A stretch of 64,000 nt of DNA from Afifellaceae bacterium (GCA_028281235.1 JANQKG010000011.1:62001-126000), one strand, 5' to 3'; positions 40,994-47,441 are shown, counted from the first letter of the stretch. Notes: generated by a model not told the origin, from the letters alone. Numbers and translations are program-made.

Positions 40994-41397
40994 GGTCGTG
41001 CATTCCCTCCCTGGCCCGTCTAGGCCGCTCGCGGTCCGCAAATAAGGTGAGACAGCGCCGGAGGCGCCGCCCGTATGGACGGTTCCGGCATTTGTGGACC
41101 CCCTTGGAACGAAATCGGACGCTATCTTTGGCCAGCCTGGACCGTCAAGAGCGATCACGGCGCCGATTTCAAGCGACAGGTCGCGTCTCAAATCGGGCCA
41201 TTTGCCGTGCGCGACGGCGAAAACTTAATCGATTGTTAACGATATTCGAAGGGAGTTGCGTTTGACGCGCTGGATACGCTCGCCGGTGGCAAAGGAAACG
41301 GAAAGCTAAAATTTGTGAGCGAGGTTCCCTTTGACGGTTCGCTGCGTCGTGTCCGGCCCCGTGTGGCCAAGACATGGCGTGAACCCCGGGAGGTCGA
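40994..41397. other. Intergenic region (404 bp) with the promoter of the DSF-sensing operon
   Basis: Divergent region between the isomerase gene and the REC-PAS-GGDEF-EAL gene. It is GC-rich except near 41220-41255, where a CtrA box lies. No repeat was seen. A GGGAGG site (41388-41393) precedes the ATG at 41398. Confidence 0.6.
41225..41240 (+). promoter_or_regulatory. CtrA box upstream of the DSF-sensing operon
   Basis: TTAA-TCGATTG-TTAAC is an exact match to the CtrA consensus TTAA-N7-TTAAC. It is 157 bases before the start codon at 41398. CtrA is the alphaproteobacterial cell-cycle response regulator. The exact 16-base fit in an otherwise GC-rich region makes chance less likely. No mapped transcript start exists, so activation versus repression is not known. 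Confidence 0.7.
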
Positions 41398-43542
41398 ATG
41401 CCGCTGGTCGTAATACTCGATGACCGCGAGACGAACCGGCACATCTATTCTCGATTGGCGGAGGCCATCGAGCCGGGTGTGACGGTGAAGGCGTTCGCCG
41501 ACCCGCTGACGGCGCTCAGCTGGCTTACCGACAACACACCCGACATCGTCATCACCGACTACAAGATGCCGCATCTCAACGGCTCGGAGTTCACCCAGCG
41601 CTTCCGTGAGCTGCCCAGCTGCGCCGACGTGCCGGTCGTCGTCATCACTGTCTATGACGAGCGCAGTTTCAGAATGGGCGCGCTGGAGGCTGGCGCCACC
41701 GATTTCCTGCACAGCCCCGTCGACCACAGCGAGTTCGTCACCCGCGCCCGCAACCTTCTGAAGCTGCGCAAGCAACAACAGCTCCTGCGGGTTCGCGCGC
41801 AGCGGCTTGAGCGTAAACTGCAGAAGAGTGAGCAGGCGCGCGAGGCGGCCTTGCGCGACAGTCACGAACGGCTGGCGCAAATCATTGACACCGTGCCGGC
41901 GATGGTCAGCGCCGCCGACCGCGACGGCCGCTGCGTCTTTTACAACGCCAGCCACGCCCAGGCGTATGGCATGAATTGCTCCGAAGGCTCCGGCGATGAA
42001 GCCAGGAACGCGGCTGTCGATCGCAGCCGCAAGCTCGATCAGCTCGTGCTGGAAACCAAGAAGGCGCTGCCGAGCTTTGAGGAGGAGTTCGCCGGTCCTG
42101 AAGGCGAGAAGCGCGTGCTCCTCACGACGAAGTCGCCGCTTCGCGATCTCGACGGCGAAATCGTGAGCGTGCTGACCACGTCGCTGGACATCACCGATCG
42201 CAAGCGCGCCGAGCGCCACCTTCTGCATTTGGCGCATCACGATTCGCTGACGGATCTCCCCAATCGCATGCTGCTTGCGCAGAAGCTCGGCATGGAGATG
42301 GAGTTCGCCCGCGCCGTCGAAGGGTGCTTTGCGCTGCACTTCATCGATCTCGATGACTTCAAGGGCATCAACGATGTGCTCGGCCACTCCGTCGGCGATC
42401 GTCTCTTGAGCGTGCTCGGCCAGGAGCTTCAGTCGGTGGTGCGCGAAACCGACATCGTGGCGCGCCTGGGCGGCGACGAATTCGCCATCCTGCAGACGCG
42501 TATCAGCGGCGCCAGCGACGCCGCCGATCTTGCCCAGCGGATCGTTGAGGTCACGTCACGGCCCATCGATATCGACGGCAAGGAGATCCAGGCGACCGCG
42601 AGCATCGGCATCACGCTGTTTCCCGCCGATGCCGACAGCGCCGACGAGCTTCTGAAGAATGCCGACCTGGCGATGTACGAAGCCAAGGCGGATGGTGGGC
42701 GGAACTTCCGGTTCTACTCAAAAGAGATGCGCATCCACGCGCAGGATATCGGGCAGCTCGACGCCGACCTCCGGCGCGCCGTGGAGCACGACCAATTCCT
42801 CGTTCATTATCAGCCGCAGGTCGATACCCAGACCGGGCGTATCATCGGCGCAGAGGCGCTCGTCCGATGGCGGCGCGACGGCGCCGTCGTGCTGCCAAGC
42901 AGCTTCTTGGCGCGCGCCGAAGCGAACGGCTTGATCATCCCCATCAACGAATGGGTGTTGCGCCGCGCCTGCAGCGACGCCCAGCGGTGGCGGCGCCTCG
43001 GCCTGCCGCCGGTGCGTATCGCGGTGAACATGTCGCCCGTGCAGTTCCGTCGACAGAATGTCGGCAAACTGGTCACCGACACATTGCAGGAAACGGGCCT
43101 GGAGCCGAAGCGCCTGGAGCTTGAGATTACCGAGAGCATCGTCATGGAGCATACCCATGCGCTCATCGGCGAGATGCGCTGGCTCCGCCGACAAGGCGTC
43201 CAATTCTCCATCGACGATTTCGGCACCGGCTATTCCTCCTTCCGCTACATCAAGGCGTTTCCCATCTCCCGCCTGAAGATCGATCAATCCTTCATCGCCA
43301 ACATGCATCGCGACATGAGCGATGTGGCCATCGTTCAGTCGATCATCGGCCTGGCCAAGAATTTGAGCCTCGGCGTTCTTGCTGAAGGCGTGGAGACGGA
43401 GGAGCAAAGAGCCTGGCTGGCCGATGAAGGATGCCACGAAGCGCAAGGCTACCTCTTCAGCCAGCCGGTCACGTCAGACGAATTCGTTGAGCTTCTGCGG
43501 GCGCAGGAACAAGTTCAAGACCAAATGGCGCGATCGGCATGA
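41398..43542 (+). CDS. Response regulator with REC-PAS-GGDEF-EAL domains (c-di-GMP turnover)
   Basis: 714-residue protein in place of the HD-GYP RpfG expected beside RpfC. REC domain 1-120: phosphoacceptor Asp54 (VITDYKMP) and acidic pair D8/D9 (VILDDR), but the usual conserved Lys is missing (FLHSPVDH). A coiled coil at about 122-160 leads to a PAS-like domain (about 160-275). The GGDEF domain has GGDEF at 358-362 with RxxD I-site RETD five residues before. The EAL domain has EAL at 486-488 and DDFGTGYSS. Both catalytic motifs are intact, so it could make and degrade c-di-GMP. The ATG has GGGAGG upstream; its stop overlaps the kinase start (ATGA). Confidence 0.92.
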   Translation: MPLVVILDDRETNRHIYSRLAEAIEPGVTVKAFADPLTALSWLTDNTPDIVITDYKMPHLNGSEFTQRFRELPSCADVPVVVITVYDERSFRMGALEAGATDFLHSPVDHSEFVTRARNLLKLRKQQQLLRVRAQRLERKLQKSEQAREAALRDSHERLAQIIDTVPAMVSAADRDGRCVFYNASHAQAYGMNCSEGSGDEARNAAVDRSRKLDQLVLETKKALPSFEEEFAGPEGEKRVLLTTKSPLRDLDGEIVSVLTTSLDITDRKRAERHLLHLAHHDSLTDLPNRMLLAQKLGMEMEFARAVEGCFALHFIDLDDFKGINDVLGHSVGDRLLSVLGQELQSVVRETDIVARLGGDEFAILQTRISGASDAADLAQRIVEVTSRPIDIDGKEIQATASIGITLFPADADSADELLKNADLAMYEAKADGGRNFRFYSKEMRIHAQDIGQLDADLRRAVEHDQFLVHYQPQVDTQTGRIIGAEALVRWRRDGAVVLPSSFLARAEANGLIIPINEWVLRRACSDAQRWRRLGLPPVRIAVNMSPVQFRRQNVGKLVTDTLQETGLEPKRLELEITESIVMEHTHALIGEMRWLRRQGVQFSIDDFGTGYSSFRYIKAFPISRLKIDQSFIANMHRDMSDVAIVQSIIGLAKNLSLGVLAEGVETEEQRAWLADEGCHEAQGYLFSQPVTSDEFVELLRAQEQVQDQMARSA

Positions 43543-46202
43543 GCGACACAGCGACAACCGGCAGCACGCATGCAACGTGGAGCCTGCGCGGGGCCATGCG
43601 CTTCGTCGCAAGCCGCTTCCGCGACCGCCCGGACACCGAACACCAGATGGTGATCAACCGGCTGGCGATCAGCACGCTGTTGATGATCTACCTGGCCATC
43701 TCCGGTCTCCTGCACACGATGGATGTGCGCGAGGCCGTCATCGCCAATTCCGTCTATGGCTGCATCTCGCTCGGCTTCTTCTTCCACCTCCTCGCCGTGC
43801 CCGGCACCTGCCACCCGCGCCGCATCGTCGGCATGTTTGTCGATATCGGTGCGTTGACCTACTGCCTCTCGGTAGGTGGCAGTACGACGGCGGTTCTGTT
43901 TCCGATCTATCTGTGGATCATCTTCGGCAACGGATTCCGGTTCGGCCTCAAATACATCTTCGCAGCCATGGGGCTGTCGCTTGTCGGCTTCGGCGCGCTT
44001 CTGATCGGTTCCGATTATTGGCGCAGCACCGGCCATCTCGGGGTCGGGCTTCTGGTCGGCCTCCTGGTGCTGCCGGCTTATGCCTCCACGCTGATCCGCA
44101 GCCTCAACATGGCGCGCCGGCAGGCTGAAGAAGCCAGCAAAGCCAAGACGCAGTTCTTGGCCAGCGTCAGCCATGAGCTGCGCACGCCGTTGAACGCGGT
44201 GATCGGCATGAGCGACCTGCTTCAGGATTCCAAGCTCAATGCGGAGCAGGGCGACATGGTGGGGACGATATCCGGCTCCGCGCGGTCGCTCTTGTCGCTG
44301 ATTGAAGGCATCTTGGACTTCTCGCGCATCGAGGCCGGGCGTATGCCGATCGAGACGATCGACTTCGACCTGCATCAGACGCTGACAGCGGTGCGCAACA
44401 TGGTAGCGCCGCAGGCGCGCGCCAAGGACCTGCGCCTGGGCCTCCACGTGTCTCCACGCACGCCCTATCTTCTGCGCGGCGACGGCCGGCACCTGCAGGA
44501 GATTCTCATCAACCTCGTCAGCAACGCGGTGAAGTTCACCAGTAATGGCCAGGTGGTCATCAGCGCCGATCTGGTCTCCGCCGAGGAGGGCGAAGCGCGC
44601 ATCCGCTTTGAGGTGAGCGACACGGGCATCGGCATTTCTCCGGAGGCGACCAGCCGCATCTTTGAGCGCTTCACGCAGGCCGACGAGACCATCCTCAATA
44701 GGTTCGGCGGGACGGGTCTTGGCCTGGCGATCTGCCGGCAGCTCGCCGAGGCGCTCGGCGGCTCCATCGGTGTCGACAGCGTGGAAGGCGAGGGCAGCAC
44801 ATTCTGGCTGGAGCTGGGCTTTGAGCCGCGCGCCGATGATGCCCCCCCGCGTCTCGACGACTTGTCCGTCGTTCTTCTGACCAAGAATCCTTCGACCATC
44901 GCGGCTGCCGGCAGAGCTTTTGCCGACAGCGGCGCGCTGGTTGCCGTTGCCGCCGATACGAACGATGCGGCCGAGCGCGCAAAGCACCATGCCTCCCACC
45001 GTGTGCTGCTTATGGCGGATGAAGCCATTGAGGGCGTGGACGCCCTTGCCGGCGAGCTGACGCGCGAGACAGGCAGCAAGGTGTCGGCGGCACTCATCTC
45101 AGCCGGAGACCAAAACGCCTTGTCCAAGGATCGCGCGGCCATCTACTGCTCCGCGCTGCCGCATGATTTTGCGCAGGCCGCTGCGCTGGCGACCGCCAAC
45201 CTCGCCCTGGGCCGCGCGCTTGGCGCGGGAACCTTGGGCAGCGCCGTCGAAGCGAGCCGCGGCCGGGCTCTGTCGATCCTTGTGGCGGAAGACAACGGAG
45301 TCAATCAGAAGGTCATTACCAAGATTCTGGAGCGCGCCGGCCACGATGTGACAATCGTGGAGGATGGCGAAAAGGCCGTCGATCTGATGCTGGCTGAGCC
45401 GTTCGACATTGTGCTGATGGACATCAACATGCCGGTGATGAACGGCATTGAGGCGACCAAGCTCTATCGCTTCGCTGCACTTGGCCGAGAGCATATGCCT
45501 ATCGTGGCGTTGACGGCTGACGCCACGCAGGAAGGGCGTGACCGCTGCATCGCTGCCGGCATGGATGGATGCGCCACTAAGCCGATCGACGCCGCGGAGC
45601 TTTTCGGCATCATTGACAGCCTGGTGGATCGTACGGTCGAGGAGGGCGAAGGGGCGGCGGTCGTCGCCATACCCGACGGCGACGAAATTGTTGCCGACAT
45701 CGCCTCCCATCCGCGCTTCAAGTCGGAGGCGCGCGCCATCGACTCCACAACGATCGAGCAATTGCGCAGCTTGGGCGGCGACGATTTCGTTGCCGATCTC
45801 GCAGAGGTCTTTGTGAAGGAAGGCGAGCGCATCTTGGAGGAACTCAGAGCCAGCGTGAGCGACGGCGACCACGAGCTCTTCCGCGATCGGCTGCATGCGC
45901 TGAGGAGCGGCGCCGCCAATATCGGGGCGCTTCCGCTCTACCAGATGTGCCTGGCGCTTCGCGGCATAACGGCCGACGCATTCGCTGCGGAGGGTCGCCA
46001 GAAAGCCGAGGAGATCGGCTTGGAGTTCGCGCGCTCGCGCCGTGAGCTCGACGAAGGCATCGCCTCGCGATCGGCTTCACGTGCAGATGATTCGGATGAT
46101 GCGTCCGCCGAAAGCAGCCGTGCCGCCGCCGGGGACGCTGTCTCTACACCGCCTCTGCGAGCCGCCGCCGGCCGTTCCAGCGCCGATTCTGCGCGATCGT
46201 AA
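43539..46202 (+). CDS. rpfC: RpfC-like hybrid sensor histidine kinase (putative DSF receptor)
   Basis: 887 residues. The N-terminus (RFRDRPDTEHQMVINR) and five to six membrane helices (about 42-185, with LWIIFGNGFRFGLKYIF) match the RpfC sensor. Kinase: SHELRTPLNAVIGM with His212, then N (NLVSNAVKF), G1 (DTGIGI) and G2 (GGTGLGLAI) boxes. A degenerate receiver (about 445-560) precedes the true receiver at about 585-705 (VAEDNGVNQKV, LMDINMPVMNG, KP). The Hpt domain has HALRSGAANIGA. The C-terminal 45 residues are Ser/Ala-rich and arise partly where the gene overlaps rpfF. In Xanthomonas RpfC senses DSF and signals to RpfG; here the coupled partner is the GGDEF-EAL protein. Confidence 0.88.
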   Translation: MSDTATTGSTHATWSLRGAMRFVASRFRDRPDTEHQMVINRLAISTLLMIYLAISGLLHTMDVREAVIANSVYGCISLGFFFHLLAVPGTCHPRRIVGMFVDIGALTYCLSVGGSTTAVLFPIYLWIIFGNGFRFGLKYIFAAMGLSLVGFGALLIGSDYWRSTGHLGVGLLVGLLVLPAYASTLIRSLNMARRQAEEASKAKTQFLASVSHELRTPLNAVIGMSDLLQDSKLNAEQGDMVGTISGSARSLLSLIEGILDFSRIEAGRMPIETIDFDLHQTLTAVRNMVAPQARAKDLRLGLHVSPRTPYLLRGDGRHLQEILINLVSNAVKFTSNGQVVISADLVSAEEGEARIRFEVSDTGIGISPEATSRIFERFTQADETILNRFGGTGLGLAICRQLAEALGGSIGVDSVEGEGSTFWLELGFEPRADDAPPRLDDLSVVLLTKNPSTIAAAGRAFADSGALVAVAADTNDAAERAKHHASHRVLLMADEAIEGVDALAGELTRETGSKVSAALISAGDQNALSKDRAAIYCSALPHDFAQAAALATANLALGRALGAGTLGSAVEASRGRALSILVAEDNGVNQKVITKILERAGHDVTIVEDGEKAVDLMLAEPFDIVLMDINMPVMNGIEATKLYRFAALGREHMPIVALTADATQEGRDRCIAAGMDGCATKPIDAAELFGIIDSLVDRTVEEGEGAAVVAIPDGDEIVADIASHPRFKSEARAIDSTTIEQLRSLGGDDFVADLAEVFVKEGERILEELRASVSDGDHELFRDRLHALRSGAANIGALPLYQMCLALRGITADAFAAEGRQKAEEIGLEFARSRRELDEGIASRSASRADDSDDASAESSRAAAGDAVSTPPLRAAAGRSSADSARS

Positions 46203-47085
46203 GCCGCTCCATTCTGCGCAGATCGCTTTCTGTGAGCGCCAGCGCCGCCTCGACCCAAATCTGCGAGATTTCGCGCAACTCGTCATAGGAGACCGGCGCG
46301 ACGCAGCGCCCGGCGCGAAAGATGCCGGCTTGTGCGTTGTGGCGCTTGCCGTTCTTCTCGATGAATTCACGCACCGCCTGCTCGCCCATATTCGGCTCTG
46401 CGAGCATATGCACGATGCCGAGCTCGTGGAGTTCCTCGGCGGTGTAGATACGGCCGCTCAGGACCATCTTCTCCGCCTGTGCGGCGCCAAGCCGGCGCGC
46501 CAGAAAGCTGTAGGCGCCCATGCCCGGGAAGAGGTTGAACAGCACCTCCGGCAGGCCGAAGCGGGCGCCGCGCTCCGCGACGATCATGTCGCATGACAGC
46601 GCCGCCTCGAAGCCACCGCCGAGCGCGTCGCCCTGCACGAGCGCGATTGTGACGACAGGAAGGTTGAAGCTGACGGCGTTGTTGTAGAGCACGTCGATGC
46701 AGCTGCGCGCGTAGCGTGTCAGAGCCGCGCCGTCGCGGTCGCGTATCCTGTCGGCAAAGACGGTCAGGTCGCCGCCGAGGCTGAAGATGCCCGGGAGCTC
46801 CGACCCCAGCACATAATAGCGAAGCGGCGTGTCGCTGTTGGCCGCCACGCGGACGAGGCCGCGCTGCATGTCAGCCAGATCCGCGAGCAGGCCCGGCGTG
46901 AAGCTTGGTCGCTCATGCGGCCGCATGCGGCACCAATAGACGCCATGCCGCGCCTCATATGCCACGTTGAGATTTTCAAAGGAGGGGGTGTCCGCCTCCG
47001 GCCACCGAACCGCCGCCCCGCGTGCTGATCCGAACAAGGGGGTGGCGAAGTCCACAGGGTGGACCGCCTTCGCAACGCTACTCAT
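46144..47085 (-). CDS. rpfF: RpfF-like DSF synthase (crotonase superfamily)
   Basis: 313-residue enoyl-CoA hydratase-fold enzyme. The RpfF hallmark is GLPEVLFNLFPGMGAYSFLARR; two catalytic glutamates, Glu160 (in GDALGGGFEAALSCD) and Glu180 (in GLPEVLF), are spaced by 20 as in RpfF of Xanthomonas (141 and 161). The C-terminal EISQIWVEAALALTESDLRRMERL block also fits. RpfF makes cis-2-unsaturated fatty acid signals from acyl-ACP by dehydratase and thioesterase steps. The N-terminus is about 24 residues longer than that of the Xanthomonas protein. It is convergent with rpfC and overlaps it by 59 bp. The acyl chain of the product is not predictable. Confidence 0.87.
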   Translation of the reverse strand: MSSVAKAVHPVDFATPLFGSARGAAVRWPEADTPSFENLNVAYEARHGVYWCRMRPHERPSFTPGLLADLADMQRGLVRVAANSDTPLRYYVLGSELPGIFSLGGDLTVFADRIRDRDGAALTRYARSCIDVLYNNAVSFNLPVVTIALVQGDALGGGFEAALSCDMIVAERGARFGLPEVLFNLFPGMGAYSFLARRLGAAQAEKMVLSGRIYTAEELHELGIVHMLAEPNMGEQAVREFIEKNGKRHNAQAGIFRAGRCVAPVSYDELREISQIWVEAALALTESDLRRMERLTIAQNRRWNGRRRLAEAV

Positions 47086-47441
47086 TGCGCTTACTCCGCC
47101 GCTTTAGGCTTGGCTGCCTCTGCCATGCCTCCGGTGCGATTAAGGAATCATTTACCACGTCTCGTCACCACAATTTGACCAGCTTGGTTAACGCCGCACC
47201 GACCGGTCGAGCCTCAAGAAAGACCTGTCGACCACGTCGGCGGCGAAACCAGAGCTGCAAACGGACAGCGTTCTGACGGGCGCACGGCGTCTTCCTCATA
47301 CTTGAGATGCTGTATCGCGAAACGGCGATACGCAATCCTAAATTTCAGGTGATACAACCGAGAGTAGTATAACGCGGGCCGCTATCAGAGGGTCCGCTGA
47401 TACGATGATCGGCAACAAGGGTGAGGGACTCCGTCGCCGGC
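47086..47441. other. Intergenic region (356 bp) upstream of rpfF
   Basis: Between the end of the gamma-glutamyltransferase gene and the start of rpfF (both minus strand). It contains the CtrA-like motif at 47140-47156 and a hairpin GTATCGC / GCGATAC at 47312-47331 that could end transcription of the upstream gene, although no T-run follows. It is AT-richer than average, consistent with promoters. No coding frame was recognised. Confidence 0.5.
47140..47156 (-). promoter_or_regulatory. CtrA-like box upstream of rpfF (one mismatch)
   Basis: On the plus strand TTAA-GGAATCA-TTTACC; relative to TTAA-N7-TTAAC one base differs in the second half-site. It ends 55 bases from the rpfF start codon at 47085, where a regulator would touch the promoter. 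It pairs with the perfect site at 41225 in front of the sensor operon. Weaker evidence than that site. Confidence 0.45.

Follow-up and report, generated by a model that had tools for sequence, protein, structure and literature searches.

A probable DSF quorum-sensing locus of an Afifellaceae bacterium with PAS-GGDEF-EAL in the place of the HD-GYP output of RpfG

A locus of an Afifellaceae bacterium probably constitutes a DSF quorum-sensing system built on RpfF and RpfC, with PAS-GGDEF-EAL substituted for the HD-GYP output of RpfG, and would act as a phosphorelay from DSF to c-di-GMP. The locus lies in a stretch of 64,000 nucleotides (GCA_028281235.1 JANQKG010000011.1:62001-126000), referred to here as the window, which belongs to a genome of 4.4 Mb rated as 100% complete. 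The identity of the genes, the operon, the residues, the conservation and the lack of an RpfG in the genome are read directly from the sequence.

Gene layout and the RpfF-type synthase

The three genes that an earlier note on this DNA had placed at 41225-47156 are all present there (Table 1), and their positions, strands and Pfam domains agree with its description of an RpfF-like synthase convergent with an RpfC-like hybrid kinase. The last 4 bases of the regulator gene (ATGA, 43539-43542) are also the first 4 of the kinase gene, which would fit translational coupling within an operon, and the tails of the convergent kinase and rpfF genes overlap by 59 bp. The Pfam domains of the gene coupled to the kinase, Response_reg, PAS_4, GGDEF and EAL, together with the 4-base overlap, bear out the REC-PAS-GGDEF-EAL protein that had been described in this position.

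Table 1. Features of the locus, with positions counted from the first letter of the window
Feature	Position	Strand	Size and basis
REC-PAS-GGDEF-EAL response regulator	41398-43542	+	714 aa, rpfG position; Pfam, motifs, receiver match
RpfC-like hybrid histidine kinase	43539-46202	+	887 aa; Pfam, N-terminus homology, phosphorelay residues, model
RpfF-type DSF synthase	46144-47085	-	313 aa; NCBIfam, PDB matches, tree, catalytic columns
Receiver-like domain in kinase (residues 442-561)	44862-45221	+	Strand-helix order of the model, PDB match ShkA 6qrj

The synthase carries the Pfam domain ECH_1, that is, an enoyl-CoA hydratase fold, and is matched by the NCBIfam crotonase subfamily PRK08788 with 368.7 bits, passing the cut-off of 177, as against 85 bits or less for the models of ordinary hydratases; the RpfF equivalog NF053515 is the second-best model with 221.9 bits, which is below its cut-off of 550. 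Among solved structures it is matched best by four, 7zq7, 5fus, 6dgn and 3m6m; the last three are RpfF proteins, and 7zq7 groups with the Xanthomonas-type RpfF in the tree. This tree, in which 13 crotonases, one of them from the window's own genome, were set against 24 RpfF-type proteins, splits the two kinds with a support of 100/100 and has the window protein on the RpfF side, so that a clustering with ordinary enoyl-CoA hydratases, which the earlier note had named as contrary evidence, was seen neither in the tree nor in the model scores. The Xanthomonas, Burkholderia and Psychromonas proteins belong to a supported set (100/97) that does not include the alphaproteobacterial RpfFs, and the RpfF of one other genome of the window's genus is 96% identical to that of the window. 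The Xcc RpfF residues G86, G138, E141 and E161, the roles of which have been described (PMC9040811), are all conserved in the alignment; E141 and E161 correspond to E160 and E180 of the window protein, exactly the paired glutamates noted before, and the column of G86 is occupied by alanine in 12 of the 13 crotonases.

The sensor kinase and the regulator in the rpfG slot

The kinase contains HisKA, HATPase_c, Response_reg and Hpt domains after a membrane N-terminus with helices up to about residue 189, and this N-terminus matches RpfCs from loci arranged canonically, as in Xanthomonas, with 86-108 bits; both results agree with the sensor, kinase, receiver and Hpt order given previously. Its 195-residue N-terminus occurs only once in the window genome. 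The phosphorelay residues, H212 of HisKA, D628 of the receiver and H786 of Hpt, are invariant in 22 homologues. DSF sensing by Xcc RpfC has been mapped to R15, D17, S18, E19 and Q22, where Q22 is essential and the substitution S18T is functional (PMC5391125). In the window kinase, the N-terminal DSF-binding motif of which is RPDTEHQM, the five positions are occupied by R, D, T, E and M, so that four are kept, with T as the tolerated form of S18, and E19 is invariant among all RpfCs that can be aligned at this site. Among the aligned kinases, M, L or I stands in the place of Q22 in 12 of the 13 partnered with GGDEF-EAL regulators, in one of 16 partnered with histidine kinases and in none of eight partnered with HD-GYP regulators, counts that mark a lineage and not a set of independent events, because the kinases are related. 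As the residue essential in Xcc RpfC is methionine here, the kinase may bind another ligand or dock it in another way.

A receiver-like domain that has no Pfam match and was missing from the earlier description separates the kinase core from the true receiver. Its best PDB match is Caulobacter ShkA (6qrj), in which the kinase core is likewise followed by a receiver-like first domain, in the same place, and a true second receiver. The domain is absent from Xanthomonas-type kinases (L148 and L150) and present in those of Psychromonas and others. The structure model of the kinase is of moderate confidence (pLDDT 75.7, pTM 0.45) and was used for domain boundaries only. ShkA differs from the window kinase in that its chain lacks an RpfC-type membrane sensor. 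A DDR stretch in the receiver linker of ShkA has a role in c-di-GMP binding; it is missing from the window kinase, and for this reason a ShkA-like c-di-GMP feedback through the receiver-like domain was dropped as a candidate.

In the regulator, the phospho-acceptor D54 (ITDY, 52-55), the I-site RETD (349-352), the GGDEF motif (358-362) and the EAL motif (486-488) were located. Its gene precedes that of the kinase, and rpfF converges on the pair, so that it has the position of rpfG in the rpfGC operon. When a Psychromonas RpfG (REC-HD_5 by Pfam) was searched against the whole window genome, the top match was the receiver of this regulator, with 118.9 bits and 46% identity, followed by the next receiver with 44.9 bits, a lead of 74 bits, and all matches were confined to the receiver part of the query. 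No HD-GYP domain (PF13487, HD_5) was found in the window genome by a search that was positive in 11 of 20 genomes, and a true RpfG encoded elsewhere, which the earlier note had considered as evidence against its proposal, was accordingly not encountered by either search. The regulator itself has no HD-GYP output domain and carries PAS-GGDEF-EAL instead. Because of the slot, the best receiver match and the lack of HD-GYP in the genome, the regulator is regarded as an RpfG-type receiver with another output; by these sequence matches, its receiver is orthologous to that of RpfG and the HD-GYP output is replaced. In the receiver tree, which was used at most for this separation since most deep forks are unsupported and one outgroup row is misplaced, the HD-GYP receivers stand apart from the alphaproteobacterial ones with modest support (87/96).

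Conservation of the trio and exchange of outputs

RpfF was searched in relatives and in samples of the order, class and phylum; every open frame in the surrounding DNA was then compared with the domains of the window, with Pfam checks on representative loci. RpfF is present in 52 of 397 sampled genomes of the window's order, and 29 of these 52 loci, including one with a broken regulator frame (L174), contain REC-PAS-GGDEF-EAL, RpfC and convergent rpfF in identical order. In 15 loci rpfF adjoins a GGDEF-EAL protein that has no receiver, and RpfC is lacking; two loci contain REC-histidine kinase and RpfC, and six loci are lone, displaced or truncated by a contig end. The adjacency of the REC-PAS-GGDEF-EAL gene to rpfF and rpfC, the constancy of which had been proposed as a check, is nearly constant in this order (29 of the 31 RpfF-RpfC loci with a regulator). 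The same trio was found in two further families in the class and phylum samples (L101 and L139), bringing it to about ten families, eight of them in the window's order, and since the same order of genes recurs over these families, the trio is not a product of chance.

The occupant of the slot differs between groups: HD-GYP in the loci outside the Alphaproteobacteria, PAS-GGDEF-EAL in the order of the window, and often PAS-histidine kinase elsewhere in the Alphaproteobacteria. Of the RpfF-RpfC loci with a regulator, 48 are alphaproteobacterial, and none of these has HD-GYP; in 17 of them (15 from the class sample and two from the window's order) the slot is taken by REC-(PAS)-histidine kinase. 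HD-GYP occurs, in contrast, in all eight loci outside the Alphaproteobacteria with a regulator beside RpfC (L033, L140, L145, L146 and L148-L151). Six more loci from outside the Alphaproteobacteria, among them one that ends at a contig edge (L034), contain RpfC and no recognised adjoining regulator. One or two HD-GYP proteins are encoded elsewhere in six of 13 trio genomes, so that in some of these the regulator may not be the only output of DSF sensing. The alphaproteobacterial kinases are separate from the others in the RpfC tree (97/92), within which a histidine-kinase-partnered kinase (L082) pairs with a GGDEF-EAL-partnered kinase (L048), also with 97/92. This pairing points to an exchange of outputs within a lineage and suggests one recent exchange; the deep forks inside the Alphaproteobacteria are unsupported, and the tree gives no count of exchanges. 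Tentatively, there may be a DSF core of RpfF, RpfC and an RpfG-type receiver with an exchangeable effector, in which the effector of the window's branch would set c-di-GMP in either direction and the change at Q22 would go with a different fatty-acid signal.

Proposed signalling route and its alternatives

In the proposed route, RpfF would convert a 3-hydroxyacyl-ACP to a cis-2-unsaturated fatty acid, which would be bound at the membrane by the RpfC-like kinase, and phosphate would then be transferred from H212 to D628, further to H786 and finally to D54 of the regulator, the phosphorylation of which would most likely increase the breakdown of c-di-GMP by the EAL domain. From the gene and protein sequences we infer this cis-2 signal, the transfer of phosphate and the direction in which c-di-GMP changes. 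Each of the 13 aligned regulators has complete EAL catalytic motifs, and 12 have an intact GGDEF; phosphorylation is therefore expected to control c-di-GMP breakdown. With EAL intact throughout, and with GGDEF lost in L101 and the I-site missing in several regulators, the breakdown half appears to be under the stronger constraint, and the output of the regulator is probably mainly that of a phosphodiesterase. The GGDEF half may be a GTP-sensing or allosteric module, or may provide the opposite activity in the other state of the protein; the coupling of DSF sensing to both synthesis and breakdown of c-di-GMP, as supposed in the earlier note, is thus no more than a possibility.

The window regulator itself keeps both the GGDEF motif and the RxxD inhibitory site, which favours the alternative that phosphorylation activates GGDEF and the signal raises c-di-GMP, with a sign opposite to that in Xanthomonas; in view of the constraint on EAL and the losses in GGDEF and the I-site just described, such a net synthesis is unlikely. 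It is less likely still that the regulator senses the signal itself through PAS, with the kinase only tuning it. RpfR, also a PAS-GGDEF-EAL protein, binds BDSF through its PAS domain (PMC6361424), but the columns of its BDSF-contact residues R187 and N202 are not conserved in the regulator (that of N202 is lysine in the type A regulators), the N-terminal FI domain of RpfR is absent with a receiver standing there instead, and the REC-PAS-GGDEF-EAL regulator is almost always accompanied by an RpfC kinase. A PAS domain without these contacts speaks for sensing through the kinase. No membrane RpfR-like protein was found elsewhere in the window genome, in a search that had no positive control.

The possibility that the fatty acid made, or the thioester hydrolysed, by RpfF serves some other end and that its product is no signal appears similarly remote: the catalytic and thioesterase residues are kept and at nearly every locus rpfF is coupled to an RpfC sensor or else to a different c-di-GMP protein, against which stand the position of the alphaproteobacterial RpfFs outside the set containing the Xanthomonas and Burkholderia proteins and the changed Q22 of the sensor. 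Hybrid kinases are common, and the kinase and regulator are linked to rpfF by gene order and homology only, but to take them for an unrelated two-component pair that merely adjoins rpfF seems highly improbable, given an RpfC-type sensor that is unique in the genome and has DSF-binding residues, a convergent trio conserved over about ten families and a regulator receiver orthologous to that of RpfG.

The phosphorelay from DSF to c-di-GMP, which remains the preferred reading, resembles RpfF/RpfC/RpfG of Xanthomonas campestris, with which the locus shares an RpfF-type synthase, a membrane hybrid kinase with receiver and Hpt, homologous receivers and a gene order in which the regulator precedes the kinase and rpfF is convergent, this order being rpfG-rpfH-rpfC in Xcc (PMC3749722). 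However, the output of RpfG is HD-GYP whereas that of the window regulator is PAS-GGDEF-EAL, there is no rpfH between the two genes, and the window kinase has the extra receiver-like domain and methionine at Q22. In RpfF/RpfR of Burkholderia and Cronobacter, RpfF is also coupled to a PAS-GGDEF-EAL protein, but RpfR carries an FI domain and is itself the receptor of the signal, no kinase being involved, whereas the window has a receiver for FI, a PAS domain without the BDSF contacts and an RpfC kinase. The rpfFCG genes of Leptospirillum likewise form a DSF cluster outside the classic groups, although they all point in one direction and their regulator is an RpfG with HD-GYP (PMC8357829).

Two core pathways have been described for DSF, RpfC-RpfG and RpfR (PMC4504480; 2026 review PMC13220807), and a search of open-access journal papers gave no mention of an RpfC that is partnered with REC-PAS-GGDEF-EAL. 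The earlier note had spoken of a distinct wiring; GGDEF-EAL downstream of a DSF-family signal was already known from RpfR (PMC4504480), and what differs from this precedent is the place of the GGDEF-EAL regulator as partner in an RpfC phosphorelay. RpfC-RpfG pairs have been reported in Alphaproteobacteria by an orthology-group survey (PMC8895600), and the output domains of these assignments should be rechecked, since the alphaproteobacterial RpfF-RpfC loci found here have other outputs.

In conclusion, the locus would represent a third DSF wiring beside RpfC-RpfG and RpfR, kept across about ten families, with receiver homology indicating an RpfG slot that carries another output. One kind of sensor and receiver with three kinds of effector would provide a natural series in which the effect of an output swap on c-di-GMP and on behavior is directly testable.

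Receiver-like domain of the window kinase

The RpfC-like hybrid kinase of the window carries a receiver-like domain (see the table), the best structural neighbour of which is ShkA, the Caulobacter hybrid kinase (PDB entry 6qrj). Such a domain is found in alphaproteobacterial and some gammaproteobacterial RpfCs, whereas Xanthomonas-type RpfCs lack it.

Coordinates of the kinase features
Feature	Extent	Position	Remark
Receiver-like domain, window kinase	residues 442-561	window 44862-45221	no Pfam match
Additional RpfC-like kinase	782 aa	L098:10642-12990	adjoins the rpfF-rpfC locus

RpfC-rpfF loci in other genomes

At the RpfF loci L057, L082, L085-L098 and L195, RpfC and rpfF are adjoined by a REC-PAS-HisKA-HATPase regulator, the output of which is itself a histidine kinase; this locus type is the most frequent in the class sample. 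In small-genome non-alphaproteobacterial relatives (family code f231; L141-L144 and L156), rpfF and RpfC are convergent, and no recognised regulator was found next to them.

A predicted membrane GGDEF-EAL protein beside rpfF

At L043, L044, L046, L047, L049-L052, L054, L056, L137, L155, L193 and L194, RpfC is absent and rpfF is adjoined by the gene for a GGDEF-EAL protein without a receiver. Four or five membrane helices are predicted in these proteins, and both of those run against Pfam contain PAS_7. The protein is a candidate further alphaproteobacterial DSF output and, unlike RpfR, the known PAS-GGDEF-EAL protein that binds BDSF itself, is predicted to be membrane-bound.
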